From the NCBI GenBank assembly GCA_902516825.1, contig CABXZZ010000004.1, positions 1 through 55,003 on the forward strand: DNA of 55,003 nucleotides, in the 5' to 3' direction. Below the pieces are notes generated by a model. The model saw only the letters and a program-made list of their open reading frames with translations. It searched no databases and was not told the DNA's origin. A program made the translations under genes and the position numbers. Position 1 is the first letter of the stretch, and the number at the start of each line of letters is the position of its first letter. The DNA is from an uncultured SAR116 cluster alpha proteobacterium. GTDB lineage: Bacteria > Pseudomonadota > Alphaproteobacteria > Puniceispirillales > Puniceispirillaceae. Below, piece by piece: positions 57 through 7,577 of the stretch.

Positions 57-398
57 TTGTATTGTAATGTTATAAAAGCAAACTTTAAAGATGAGAGTGC
101 TCTGAAATCTCTTTTAAGTTATACAGATAAAGGCGCTGATTATGATAGGTTCCAAAAGTTCGGGGCATTGCTAAAGTTCTGGGTAAAATTATCTCCAAGC
201 TCAGGGATATTCGTTATTATTTATCCTTCAGAGAACCTTTTTGCAAACGCAAAGAATGAATTTAGTTCCATAATTAAATCTTTAGAATTAACTGGAAGTA
301 AAATTGAAACATTCTCTGGTGCAATCGAGAATTTAAGTTACAACGATATTTTTAATGAAGCGCTGAAAAAGATTGGGACTGCATTTTCATTAGACTAA
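57..398 (+). CDS. hypothetical protein, 113 aa
   Basis: I do not recognise this small protein, and no catalytic motif or membrane segment is evident. It has mixed alpha/beta composition, with a hydrophobic strand around residues 45-58 and a helical C-terminus. The start is a TTG at 57, placed 8 nt after an AAGGAA ribosome-binding site at 43-48. The nearer ATG at 52 is out of frame and stops after seven codons, so either TTG is the true start or one base has changed in the TTTT run at 55-58. It lies at the window edge with no partner gene, so context gives no function. Confidence 0.55.
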   Translation: MYCNVIKANFKDESALKSLLSYTDKGADYDRFQKFGALLKFWVKLSPSSGIFVIIYPSENLFANAKNEFSSIIKSLELTGSKIETFSGAIENLSYNDIFNEALKKIGTAFSLD

Positions 399-647
399 AA
401 TTCTACATTTTTTATCAAGCCTTTAGTTTATCCTGTGTTCTGTGATATCTATTGTGCGAATTAGAAATTTTTTGATTACCTTTTTGCAGCATGGATTTCT
501 CTAATTAAAAAAGTAGTCAAAAAAGGACATCAATCCAAACAACTCTAACTTTTATTCAATAGAGCACTAAACTGCAAAAATAGCAGGCAAGAGTTCGAAA
601 TTTATCGAGCGCGCTGTCACTTCGAAAACTCATGTCGAGTTTTTCAA

Positions 648-2387: not shown

Positions 2388-2464
2388 GCGCCTGTAGCTC
2401 AGCTGGATAGAGCACTAGACTTCGAATCTAGGGGTCAGGGGTTCGAATCCTCTCGGGCGCGCCA
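2388..2464 (+). tRNA. tRNA-Arg (anticodon TCG)
   Basis: A complete cloverleaf can be drawn. The acceptor arm GCGCCTG pairs with CGGGCGC, allowing one G-T pair. The anticodon stem is CTAGA/TCTAG around loop CTTCGAA, which gives anticodon TCG and decodes CGA. The T-arm has the TTCGAAT loop, followed by discriminator G and an encoded CCA. An integrase relic begins about 100 nt downstream in the same orientation, so this tRNA was probably used as an attachment site. Confidence 0.93.
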
Positions 2465-2566
2465 TGTTTTTCTCATTAAATTAGTCTTTTATCGTTCAGG
2501 GTGATGGTTTCGTTTGTGTAAAATGCAATTTTTGACAGAGATTTGGCACAGTAAAAGGTCAAGTCG

Positions 2567-2911
2567 ATGGGTAGTGTGCGTAAAATGGGTGAAACTTGGA
2601 ATGCACAAGTCAGAGTTCCGCGTTAGAGAAGTTTAACTAATTCGCTCAAGTCCAAATCAAATGCTTTATACTGGATTAATGATTTAGAAAATAATTTAAA
2701 AAGCACCAATATAACAAAAGCAGATATAAAGGATTTACGATTTCATGATCTGAGGCATGAAGAAATTTCTAGATCCTTCAAGATGGGAATGTCGTTTTCG
2801 GAGGTTACTCTTATATCTGAGCATAAGAATGTTAGGCAACTTCTGAGATATACTCACCTGAATCCAAATAATATACTTAGAGAGTATAAGCCGTTTTTGG
2901 GATTGATTTAA
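2567..2911 (+). pseudogene. tyrosine recombinase (phage-type integrase) relic
   Basis: A single reading frame, interrupted by one TAG after codon 19, carries both ends of a tyrosine integrase. The first 19 codons (start MGSVRKMGETWNAQVRVPR) look like an arm-type DNA-binding N-terminus. After a short bridge the frame resumes with the C-terminal catalytic region: FHDLRHE (box II His and Arg), a degenerate SEHKN box, and the RYTHL nucleophile Tyr. The middle of the protein, including the box I Arg, is missing. About 115 codons remain where a full integrase has 300-400. It cannot be active. Its position just 3' of tRNA-Arg is the classic layout of an integrated island. Confidence 0.82.
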
Positions 2912-3001: not shown

Positions 3002-3091
3002 GGAGAGGTGGCAGAGTGGTTGAATGTGGCGGTCTCGAAAACCGTTGTACGTGAAAACGTACCGAGGGTTCGAATCCCTCTCTCTCCGCCA
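3002..3091 (+). tRNA. tRNA-Ser (anticodon CGA)
   Basis: This is a class II tRNA with a long variable arm (TTGTACGTGAAAACGTACCGA region). Acceptor GGAGAGG pairs with TCTCTCC. The anticodon stem GCGGT/ACCGT encloses CTCGAAA, giving anticodon CGA, which decodes UCG. The T-loop is TTCGAAT, followed by discriminator G and an encoded CCA. It lies 90 nt after the integrase relic. Confidence 0.93.
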
Positions 3092-3717
3092 TTGAAAAAT
3101 ATGGTTTTATTATCCTATACTTTGGGCTTACGGATTGGAGTAATTTCTAAAGATAATACCCTTTTAAATTAATTGAAGGATAATATCTTATCTAAAGGAA
3201 GGTAAAATTCTGTTCTAGTTCAAAAAAAATAGAAAAATAGTGTGATTTGTAAACTTATTATAACGTGGGAAATATTTAATGACTTTTCATAAATTATTTC
3301 ATTTATTCAATATTTTACGAAACATAAAATTTGTTGATCTATAACTAGTTACGATTAAACAAAATCATATTTAATTATAATTTGATTTTTATACACTTTA
3401 AGTATGATAAAAGAATTAATATTGTTTTATTATTAGGAATTTTAAAATATGACAATCACTAACGTTAGAATTAATCCCTTTTTCATCATTCGTTTAGTCA
3501 AATTAATAATAAGAATTTTTGTTAAATTTAAAAAAGAAAGGTAATGAAATCCTTTATGTTATTCAGATTCGATCATGCTACTTAGTTTTTTAAGACTAGA
3601 TGATAGACTTAGTAACGTTTGCTTTTCAAAGACGTCCTTTAGAGGAAATTCCTTCACCTTAGAATAGTTGGAGAGAATCTTTATTTCTGAAGGAATAATC
3701 GTGGTAGGAAAAATAAT
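3092..3717. other. very AT-rich stretch without a firm gene; possible minus-strand remnant
   Basis: Most of this region is low-complexity AT-rich DNA with stops in all frames. On the minus strand, 3559-3714 stays open for about 50 codons, reading roughly PTTIIPSEIKIL...SSMIESE before TAA. It has no start codon or ribosome-binding site, so it may be the tail end of a lost gene. Nothing else could be supported. Confidence 0.5.
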
Positions 3718-4254
3718 ATGATTTTAATACTTGTCGCCATAAAAGAAGGACTAATGAAAACGACTTACCAAATATGCAAATGCGTTACACTGGCGTTGGT
3801 AAGATAAATGCTTCACTCAAAACATTAAAATCATTAAAGATTATTCTCCATCTTTAATAATCAATTATGGAACTGCTGGTAGTTTAAACAAAGAATGGGG
3901 AGGTTTGGTCGAAGCAACTAGATTTTTTAAAGAGACATGGATGCTACTCCGCTTGGATTTAAGATTGATCAAACCCCGTTTGATGATATTGGAGAAATAA
4001 ATTTTGGAGGTGGTCGATACAGTTGCGGGACAGGAGACTCTTTTGTCACCCAGACCCCAAAATTCAAAACAGACCTGGTTGATATGGAGGCATACGCCAC
4101 CGCAAAAATTTGTTATATAAAAAATGTAAGGTTTAAATGTTTTAAATATATCTCTGATAGTGGTGATGGTGGTGCAAATGAAGACTGAATTGACAATGTT
4201 TCCTTAGGGAAGAAACTATTCGTTAACCAAATGAGAGATTTAGTAGTTAATTGA
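3718..4254 (+). pseudogene. broken nucleosidase/phosphorylase-superfamily gene (MTA/SAH nucleosidase-like)
   Basis: Pieces of one protein appear in different frames. They include an N-terminal MILILVAIKEG, then MQMRYTGVGKINAS in another frame, then NYGTAGSLNKEWG, then a longer frame from 3937 with DMDATPLGFK, SCGTGDSFV and LVDMEAYA. The VDMEAYA and GTAGSL motifs are typical of the purine nucleoside phosphorylase / methylthioadenosine-S-adenosylhomocysteine nucleosidase fold. At 4186 a TGA falls where related proteins usually have Trp, and the frame continues to a second stop at 4252. At least two frameshifts and a nonsense change are needed, so the gene is dead. The family call is good; the exact substrate is not known. 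Confidence 0.75.
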
Positions 4255-4257
4255 AAA

Positions 4258-4290
4258 CACTTGCACTAAAGTTGCAAGTGCCTTCGAAGG
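4258..4290 (+). promoter_or_regulatory. tandem inverted repeats upstream of the DsrE-family gene
   Basis: CACTTGCA (4258-4265) and TGCAAGTG (4273-4280) form an 8-bp perfect stem with a 7-nt loop. They are followed at once by the palindrome CCTTCGAAGG (4281-4290). No T-run follows, so a classical terminator is unlikely. The pair sits 50 nt before the DsrE-family start and could be an operator, an mRNA 5' structure, or a remnant of the dead gene's 3' end. Confidence 0.4.
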
Positions 4291-4339: not shown

Positions 4340-4702
4340 ATGTCTAAAGTACTTGTTCATATTCACAGTGATTTGGAATTGAGAAATAAAGTAACATTAG
4401 CTTTGATGGTTGCCCTTGCTGCAGAAAAAAGTGGACATGAAGTAACTCTTTTTCTTGCTGCGGACGGAGTGCACATTTTAAATTGCAAAAGTGCTGGTGA
4501 AATAGTGGGTCAAGGTACCGGAGATTTATACGAACATCTTGAGAATTTAAAGAAAACAAATGTTGCAATATTCGTCTCGGGTATGTCTGCTAAAGCAAGG
4601 GGGTATAATGAAACGCTTTTGAATGGATATAAAGCAGAGTTTGCAACGCCTGATAAACTAGTTGAAGAGTCCATTAAGTCCGATAGCGTGCTCTGCTATT
4701 GA
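4340..4702 (+). CDS. DsrE/DsrF-like family protein
   Basis: This 120-aa protein has the DsrE/YchN-type small alpha/beta fold. An N-terminal strand (KVLVHIHSD) is followed by a helix rich in Ala (VALAAEKSGHEV), the strand VTLFLAADGV, and a late strand VAIFVSGMSAKARG. Family members act in sulfur relay or as small oligomeric proteins of unknown role; whether this one carries a sulfur-transfer Cys is unclear, though it has Cys in the middle and at the penultimate position. I chose ATG 4340 because AGGAGA lies 5 nt before it. The upstream in-frame ATG at 4307 has no such site. It appears to be a single-gene unit. Confidence 0.7.
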   Translation: MSKVLVHIHSDLELRNKVTLALMVALAAEKSGHEVTLFLAADGVHILNCKSAGEIVGQGTGDLYEHLENLKKTNVAIFVSGMSAKARGYNETLLNGYKAEFATPDKLVEESIKSDSVLCY

Positions 4703-5488: not shown

Positions 5489-5846
5489 AAATTAATCGTG
5501 AATATTAAATAATCATTATTTTAAATACCGAATTTTAAACTTATTTACTGCATATTGTGATTAGTGGGTGGAGCCCTTTCAGTTCTCAATGATAAAAGAT
5601 GAATTCAAATCAAAAGCACCCCACTTTTTTTGCTCGAACAGTTGCAACTCTAAGTTTTACTTGAATGATTTATGCAGGGCAACAATTCTTCCACTACTAC
5701 CCTTAGATGACTTCGGTATTTAGGACCCTCCCGGCCACACCATTTCCTATCAATAGTCTGGCGGACACCTGCGCTATTTTAAGTTCCCCTTAAGCAATGA
5801 ATAGCCTCTCAGACGCACTATTTTTTTAACAATAAAACCGCCTGCT
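5489..5846. other. intergenic stretch without a gene
   Basis: No open frame or RNA gene could be supported. An imperfect hairpin (GCTATT...TTAAG / CTTAA...AATAGC, about 5771-5804) precedes a run of seven T residues near 5820, 25 nt beyond the stop of the leftward hydrolase gene. Its orientation does not make it a clear terminator for that gene. Confidence 0.4.
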
Positions 5847-7577
5847 TTAGATTACTGGCAGAAGTAAGAAGGGCCTTTGCTCCTTAGAAAAGTGTAATGA
5901 GACTTTTTTACCAAACACATCCATAGGTCTATCATTTGGGTCATTATGTAAAAACGGGCCACAACCTGAAAATTTATTCATGTTCGGGAGTGTGCTACCG
6001 CCACCAGACTGATTAACATAATCTTTACCTCTAACAGTCAAACCAATCCTAAAATTCTTTGGAATTACAATCGAGGTAGGCCAAATCTCAACATCCAACT
6101 CATATATTTTATTAGGCTGAAGCGGTTGAATCTCGTCATGAGTATAATAAGGCCTATAAGGTTTGCTCATTTCTGGATCGAGCTTCCTGTGAGAAGCCCG
6201 CAACCAGCCCTGACCAACAGGAGTGTTTGGATCAAGTGCTCCCTTGAACGTTACTTCCTTAAGATCTTCTGTAAACACACGCACGACTAAAAACAAATCA
6301 GCATCCTCAGTTTCTGAGGATACAAATAATTTTGATGCCATTGGACCTGTTATCTCAGTTTCAGCCTCTATCGGCTCACTTAGAAATGTTATTCCTTCGC
6401 CAAAACCATCATATTCAACTTTAGATTCATCAAATTTTTTTTCTTCTGCAGAGAGTGAGCCAGACGGAGTTAGATATAACTTAGTCCAGTTAGTCCGCGC
6501 GAGTGGCCATTCGTTTTCTTTTCTTTCAATAAACTTATCACCTGGATACCTTACCTGGAGTGTAACTCTTGGTTCCTTTGCCCAGTTATTTTTCTCTTCT
6601 TTGAGATAATACCCAAAAAATCTTTTCTGAATATCTACCCCATAATCTGTATAAAATTCTGTCCAATGCTCTAAACCATGTACTTCAAGCCATTTTTCTG
6701 TCGAAGCGATTTTACCAAACCCCTCAAAATTGCCACGAGAGTGAAGCGACTGCCCTCCCCAATTGGCTGCAGAAAGTACAGGGACATGAATTTTTGAAAA
6801 ATCAGGTATTCTTTCTTGCCAATATTGGTCCGTCACTAACTTATTCTGGAACATATGACTGTTCATATTGGTTCGATTATAGCCAAGCTCCTCATTAGAC
6901 AAAGTAACAGGTCCTGAGACATAATCACCATTAATTCGTGCTTTATATCCGTTTACACCTAAACCATGCTGCCTTGGAATACATCGCCCTTTGTACCAGT
7001 TTCCTCCATAGGTACAAAACATACCTCCGTGATAGGCCCATTCTCTATATAAGTCATGCGCCCCCTCCCAGATACACATGGCAGCAAGACTGGGCGGCTG
7101 TAATTCGGCAACTTGCCACTGGTTGATGGCGTAATAAGAAATCCCGTTCAAACCAATTTTACCATTTGACCAGTCCTGCTCAGCAGCCCATTGAATACAG
7201 CTATAAAAATCTTTAGTCTCACGAGGTGAAAAAGGGTCTAAATATCCGGGTGAACGGCCTGCCCCACGGGAATCTATTCGCACACACACATATCCATCTG
7301 GAACCCACCTTTCAGGGTCTACAACTTCCCAATTTTGATATTTACTGGAAGTGTTATCCGTGACTTCAGGGAATTTTTCTACCATAATATCCCACTGAGG
7401 CTTATATCCATCTCGGAAATCCAACCATTTTCCATAGACACCATAAGTCATAATTACAGGATATTTACCTGCTACTTCGGGACAGAAAATATCAGCTCTT
7501 AAAATAATACCATCCTCCATTTCAATAGGATGATCCCAATAAATTTTCATGCCATCATTAAACGTAATTTTTGTCAT
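5847..7577 (-). CDS. CocE/NonD-type alpha/beta hydrolase (S15 family)
   Basis: This 576-aa protein has the X-Pro dipeptidyl-peptidase/CocE layout. The alpha/beta hydrolase core covers about residues 20-330. It includes the oxyanion-region motif VRIDSRGAGRSPG near 100 and the nucleophile elbow GISYYA, with Ser about 147. A His in VHGLEHW is the likely catalytic His. A C-terminal jelly-roll domain follows from about 370. Family members cleave acyl esters, beta-lactams or peptide N-termini; the substrate is unknown here. No signal peptide is seen, so it is probably cytoplasmic. It starts at ATG 7577, is monocistronic, and diverges from the gene at 7765. Confidence 0.82.
   Translation of the reverse strand: MTKITFNDGMKIYWDHPIEMEDGIILRADIFCPEVAGKYPVIMTYGVYGKWLDFRDGYKPQWDIMVEKFPEVTDNTSSKYQNWEVVDPERWVPDGYVCVRIDSRGAGRSPGYLDPFSPRETKDFYSCIQWAAEQDWSNGKIGLNGISYYAINQWQVAELQPPSLAAMCIWEGAHDLYREWAYHGGMFCTYGGNWYKGRCIPRQHGLGVNGYKARINGDYVSGPVTLSNEELGYNRTNMNSHMFQNKLVTDQYWQERIPDFSKIHVPVLSAANWGGQSLHSRGNFEGFGKIASTEKWLEVHGLEHWTEFYTDYGVDIQKRFFGYYLKEEKNNWAKEPRVTLQVRYPGDKFIERKENEWPLARTNWTKLYLTPSGSLSAEEKKFDESKVEYDGFGEGITFLSEPIEAETEITGPMASKLFVSSETEDADLFLVVRVFTEDLKEVTFKGALDPNTPVGQGWLRASHRKLDPEMSKPYRPYYTHDEIQPLQPNKIYELDVEIWPTSIVIPKNFRIGLTVRGKDYVNQSGGGSTLPNMNKFSGCGPFLHNDPNDRPMDVFGKKVSLHFSKEQRPFLLLPVI

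Follow-up and report, generated by a model that had tools for sequence, protein, structure and literature searches.

Features of the tRNA-Arg(TCG) locus

The window, meaning the entire 55,003-nt stretch of DNA analysed, contains a tRNA-Arg(TCG) gene that is followed by a broken integrase gene, an intact tRNA-Ser(CGA), a dead nucleosidase-like gene and an intact DsrE-family gene before an S15 peptidase gene is reached (Table 1). The integrase relic is a single frame whose sole stop is a TAG at codon 20, and it begins 103 nt past the end of the tRNA. An intact 326-aa paralogue is encoded behind tRNA-Arg(ACG) on contig C31 of the same genome, which comprises 1.47 Mb in 92 contigs and is 62% complete. 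Because the relic matches only residues 1-62 (58%) and 266-326 (74%) of this paralogue, we estimate from the alignment that about 215 codons have been lost in frame. The two matching pieces overlap in the window near 2714-2752. The catalytic HxxR, H and Y motifs are kept, and the first catalytic arginine falls within the missing part.

The part of the relic 3' of the TAG (2627-2908) matches PF00589 at 29.7 bits, above the curated cut-off of 27.1, and it also matches PHROG integrase families and one PHROG of unknown function. The initial annotation had placed a tyrosine integrase relic in the same orientation about 100 nt past the tRNA, with its N-terminal start and C-terminal HxxR...H...Y retained, its middle deleted and one TAG in frame. 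The distance, the paralogue alignment and the profile searches, which it had named as a possible refutation, all agree with this description. The lone, short Pfam match might suggest an open frame left by chance or by some unrelated gene, but this has next to no chance of being correct when about 61 C-terminal residues are 73-75% identical to the nearest members of the integrase family and both the spacer and the spacing match that family.

Table 1. Coordinates of the features of the window discussed in the text
Feature	Position	Strand	Basis or remark
Right-end cargo ORF of ACG island (cluster 17)	57..398	+	87% to the ORF preceding the G009 far-end repeat
Decayed far-end repeat of ACG island	559..614	+	79% to nt 20-75 of tRNA-Arg(ACG)
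tRNA-Arg(TCG)	2388..2464	+	ARAGORN; Rfam 68 bits; putative target gene and near end of island
tRNA-to-integrase spacer	2465..2566	+	MAFFT alignment with ACG-island spacer; spacing as in intact copies
Integrase relic	2567..2911	+	Retains ~50 residues of the N terminus and ~61 of the C terminus; TAG at 2624-2626
Intact tRNA-Ser(CGA), cargo of island family	3002..3091	+	ARAGORN; relatives' islands
Stretch resembling DNA downstream of small ORF cluster 16	3106..3446		blastn, 71-74% identical in G003, G004, G007, G009
Stretch resembling DNA directly 3' of tRNA-Ser	3414..3637		blastn, 74-75% identical in G003 and G007
Dead nucleosidase-like gene, piece	3937..4188	+	PF01048 24.3 bits, just below cut-off of 25.1
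Intact DsrE-family gene, cargo	4340..4702	+	Inverted relative to relatives' islands
Second, weaker tRNA-Arg 3'-end-like stretch	5712..5742	+	Missed by unanchored search
Candidate decayed far-end repeat (attR) of tRNA-Arg(TCG)	5799..5820	+	Joined alignment with G007, score 41
S15 peptidase gene, right flank	5847..7577	-	Directly after tRNA-Arg(TCG) in G002, G007, G008

The integrase family and its target sites

When used to search genome contigs, the intact integrase matched 31 loci, and those above 60% identity lie in SAR116-cluster, Puniceispirillum, Rhodospirillaceae or Alphaproteobacteria records. The spacing to the tRNA was counted in 15 family loci (rows L016-L044, identity of 55% or more, aligned from residue 1; L044 is partial), with rows L072-L091 excluded because several of them repeat the same loci. 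In 12 of the 15, a tRNA-Arg occurs 92-106 nt upstream of the integrase (nine ACG, three CCG); the remaining three (L022, L023, L028) have no tRNA within 700 nt upstream. More distant integrases sit behind other tRNAs (Val, Pro, Met). The spacer of the window aligns with that of the ACG islands, and no intact family integrase was seen behind tRNA-Arg(TCG) in the loci read. In a tree, the relic clusters with integrases found behind tRNA-Arg(ACG) in the same genus (support 92/99, branch not starred), although the relic fills only 34% of the columns, has a long branch and falls within no starred group. Contig C31 also encodes a second, shorter tyrosine recombinase behind the ACG integrase (L103 17232-17855), and this protein has a relative on contig C21 of G004.

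Occupied and unoccupied sites

Three genomes of the same genus have the S15 peptidase gene almost immediately after tRNA-Arg(TCG), at 114 nt (G002), 28 nt (G007) and 47 nt (G008), compared with 3382 nt in the window. An insert in the window relative to these three genomes is thus well supported, and the comparison with related genomes that had been recommended favors the original proposal of an island that integrated at the tRNA and then decayed. Across the genus as a whole, the flank has a more complicated history. In five other genomes (G001, G003, G004, G005 and G009) a different gene cluster, ABC-transporter-like by eye, follows tRNA-Arg(TCG), with pieces of S15 located beyond this cluster in G004, so the S15 gene is not necessarily the ancestral right-hand neighbour. 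No whole tRNA-Arg(TCG) was found in G006.

A second copy of the tRNA 3' end had also been anticipated on the flanking chromosome. No near-exact copy exists, as a search of the window for the 22-nt 3' end of tRNA-Arg(TCG) with up to three mismatches recovers only the tRNA itself, but a decayed candidate occurs where the flank of G007 resumes. The tRNA 3' end and flank of G007 align in one piece to 5799-5893, with the tRNA part falling on 5799-5820. The corresponding joined alignment scores only 14 with G008, and with G002 the flank alone aligns and the tRNA part is left out. With the end fixed at 5820, the score of the tRNA part is 9, a value reached by 1 in 3000 shuffles after four boundaries were tried and by 2 of 2747 positions, 5820 itself and 5742, which ties with it. 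Without anchoring, shuffled sequences do as well in 137 of 2000 cases. We therefore consider 5799-5820 a candidate decayed 22-nt copy of the tRNA end, one that is weak as a match by itself, because the unanchored match is unremarkable even though the anchored score is good.

Three other stretches were considered as far ends and set aside. The one at 5712-5742 was demoted after the anchored and unanchored tests. The one at 559-614 is on the wrong side of the tRNA, is more similar to tRNA-Arg(ACG) than to tRNA-Arg(TCG) (79% versus 73%) and aligns with the far end of the ACG island in G009. A putative repeat behind tRNA-Arg(TCG) in G003 was also rejected, since the joined alignment there covers the flank only and includes no tRNA end.

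Cargo between the tRNA and the S15 gene

The gene-poor 3 kb beyond the relic does contain a second dead gene, as the initial annotation had reported. This nucleosidase-like gene is disrupted in frame and extends by eye over roughly 3770-4260. The annotation had not listed the intact tRNA-Ser(CGA) and DsrE-family genes in the same region, however, and its boundaries for the island (2388-2911) are too short, for the far end lies well beyond them. The island is consequently decayed, as had been claimed, but not wholly lost. Open-frame relatives of the nucleosidase-like gene (182-193 aa) occur in three of the nine other genomes of the genus (G005, G008, G009), on contigs other than those of the islands.

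Both intact genes also occur in the islands that relatives carry behind tRNA-Arg(ACG). The tRNA-Ser and its upstream stretch are 85.5-89.6% identical over 153-228 nt to their counterparts in G003, G004, G005, G007 and G009, and DsrE is 85-87% identical to the copies in G004, G005, G007 and G009, where its orientation is the opposite one. The order of the cargo in the window is rearranged relative to these islands. DsrE has evolved under purifying selection: its dN/dS is 0.05-0.07 at a dS of 0.71-0.85, and it has therefore been under selection for most of its separate history. It is the sole Pfam-family protein among seven proteins of the G009 island that were scanned, and PADLOC identified no defence gene among ten island proteins.

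The common cargo raises the possibility that ordinary recombination between the two tRNA-Arg genes carried DNA from the neighbouring ACG island to the site behind tRNA-Arg(TCG), with no separate integration. These tRNAs are 92% identical and can be close together: the distance is 1.3 kb in G003, 2.1 kb in G001, 7.2 kb in G009 and only 76 nt in G024. This route is nonetheless improbable, as DsrE of the window is far more divergent from the ACG copies (dS as above) than these are from one another (dS 0.12-0.24), and near the far junction nothing of ACG type exceeds chance, since 1529 of 2000 shuffles reach the score of the best match. An integrase relic behind tRNA-Arg(TCG) in G024, a genome of another genus, also argues for a separate event, with the reservation that the ACG gene is so near there that the relic may belong to either tRNA.

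Distribution of tRNA-Ser(CGA)

Genes 97-100% identical to the tRNA-Ser(CGA) of the window occur in 10 of 61 genomes of the family and in three genera. Defined by a match at E 1e-28 or better, the carriers are seven of the ten genomes of the genus together with G024, G028 and G068, which represent two other genera; the lowest pairwise identity among the copies compared is 94.4%. No match of this grade is present in G002, G006 or G008, which are listed as 92, 80 and 95% complete. In G004, G007 and G009, the gene and an intact integrase both follow tRNA-Arg(ACG), and in G005 the gene shares a 3-kb contig with the integrase. Behind tRNA-Arg(TCG), it occurs in the window, in G003, where no integrase was found, and in G024, where it is on the other strand and accompanied by the relic. 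The G001 copy is near tRNA-Arg(CCG), and no family integrase was found there. G010, G012, G031, G036 and a number of genomes from a separate family encode another Ser(CGA), whose identity to the gene of the window is 83-87%.

One could suppose that tRNA-Ser(CGA) is native to this neighbourhood and that the integrase merely landed beside it. Its presence in most genomes of the genus would fit such a history, as would G028 and G068, in which the stretches of 12 and 11 kb surrounding tRNA-Ser contain no tRNA-Arg or family integrase. G001 points in the same direction, since its CCG-like repeat lies between tRNA-Arg(CCG) and tRNA-Ser and therefore leaves the latter outside the repeat pair, which counts against a simple picture of island cargo. 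A native origin is quite improbable all the same. Within a single genus, the gene follows ACG in some genomes and TCG or CCG in others, it brings a shared upstream stretch with it, and it is missing at the same grade from the three genomes named above. Moreover, it is 100% identical between G028 and the genome of the window while their Ser(UGA) genes are only 82.4% identical. The comparison with G024 alone would prove little, because not only Ser(CGA) (97.8%) but also Ser(UGA) (92.2%) and Arg(ACG) (97.4%) have high identities there.

If the tRNA arrived as cargo, its persistence may reflect selection. The other serine tRNAs in G000, G002, G003, G008, G009, G024 and G028 read UGA or GCU, and in the five carriers among these seven genomes the copy described here is the only whole Ser(CGA). 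Among 32 ORFs of at least 250 aa (window 5801-55003), UCG has a 6.8% share of the serine codons. In G001, the CCG repeat is 46 nt long with its first 24 bases exact and lies about 1.4 kb behind tRNA-Arg(CCG) (L149 9449-9494). G028 has an extra 70-nt fragment of tRNA-Ser(CGA) beside an integrase tail on another contig.

The sister island at tRNA-Arg(ACG)

The left end of the window retains the remnant of a second island. The repeat at 559-614 matches tRNA-Arg(ACG) better than any of 2000 shuffles. Contig C31 probably joins the window at this end, because tRNA-Arg(ACG) lies upstream of tRNA-Arg(TCG) in G001, G003, G009 and G024. The ACG island on C31 seems to have lost its tRNA-Ser, as only the last 19 nt of this gene follow the intact integrase, 12 nt behind it (L103 14748-14766). 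In G009, the ACG island is about 5 kb long and has a 57-nt repeat. The corresponding site in G003 is empty, its tRNA and YHYH-protein gene aligning with the far-end repeat and the same gene in G009, and the G009 island is therefore a well-supported insertion. Beyond the YHYH-protein gene, G004 and G005 contain a second, older ACG-like fragment of about 70% identity (L109 1598-1655; L107 reversed 1585-1643), which suggests serial integrations at this tRNA.

Model for integration and decay

The features behind tRNA-Arg(TCG) are very probably what is left of a small tyrosine-integrase island that integrated at this tRNA and then decayed, with two cargo genes remaining intact. A tyrosine integrase from a SAR116 integrase family that targets tRNA-Arg genes would have driven the island into the 3' part of the gene, so that the near end kept a complete tRNA and the far end received a duplicate of the tRNA 3' end. 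The island would have brought tRNA-Ser(CGA) and the DsrE-like gene with it. Later, the integrase would have lost its middle and gained a stop, and the remainder would have been deleted and reshuffled down to 3.38 kb while both cargo genes stayed intact.

We lean, with some hesitation, toward a broader model in which a family of tiny SAR116 islands moves Ser(CGA) from genus to genus and between the sites of three tRNA-Arg isoacceptors, and in which hosts with no other whole Ser(CGA) keep the tRNA as the island dies. Decay in the genome of the window would then be complementary, the ACG copy retaining the integrase and the 3' tip of tRNA-Ser and the TCG copy retaining tRNA-Ser and the integrase relic. 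A streamlined ocean bacterium would thus have a likely route by which to gain a tRNA gene, which arrives on a small island that then decays around it. The genomes with filled, unfilled and decayed sites form a set for dating gain and loss at this SAR116 tRNA-Arg hotspot.

Relationship to known elements

In tRNA-targeted islands, the tyrosine integrase gene adjoins the 3' side of the tRNA and shares its orientation, and a repeat of the tRNA 3' end marks the far end. The SAR116 islands resemble these in having the integrase behind the tRNA, a whole tRNA at one end and a decaying integrase, and those at tRNA-Arg(ACG) also have a clear repeat at the other end. They differ from typical examples in their small size (about 5 kb from tRNA to repeat in G009), their tRNA-Arg sites and their tRNA-Ser cargo. 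Other papers concern tRNA gene fragments (PMC9897764) and plasmid-borne tRNA arrays (PMC12803027). The island is ordinary in kind, and its modest novelty is a tRNA-Ser gene that travels and is retained.

A phage or phage-satellite origin is not supported. Integrase relatives were found on three viral contigs at only 32-33% identity, and of ten proteins scanned against PHROG, the three of integrase type match integrases and one other has a weak match of unknown function. The exact tRNA-Ser pattern has no match in the viral contigs, and none of the 123 matches of the tRNA-Ser region to phage records covers 80% of the query.

Two published systems invite comparison. Tycheposons, described from Prochlorococcus and reported in Methylophilaceae, are cargo islands of 4-200 kb that share with the SAR116 islands a streamlined aquatic host, a border tRNA and a tyrosine recombinase (PMC10872708). 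This likeness rests on the border tRNA and the recombinase, which are too general to decide membership, and the targets seen for the SAR116 islands, tRNA-Arg genes, constitute a difference. A putative ICE of Acidithiobacillus carries a tRNA array unit and so likewise has tRNA genes as cargo of an integrated element (PMC5468388). Its array has tens of tRNA genes, whereas the SAR116 element is very small and carries a single tRNA-Ser(CGA). G028 has a tRNA-Arg(TCG) that shares just 71% identity with the gene of the genus; it lies near a broken integrase (L157 6856-6932) and is perhaps itself a carried tRNA-Arg.
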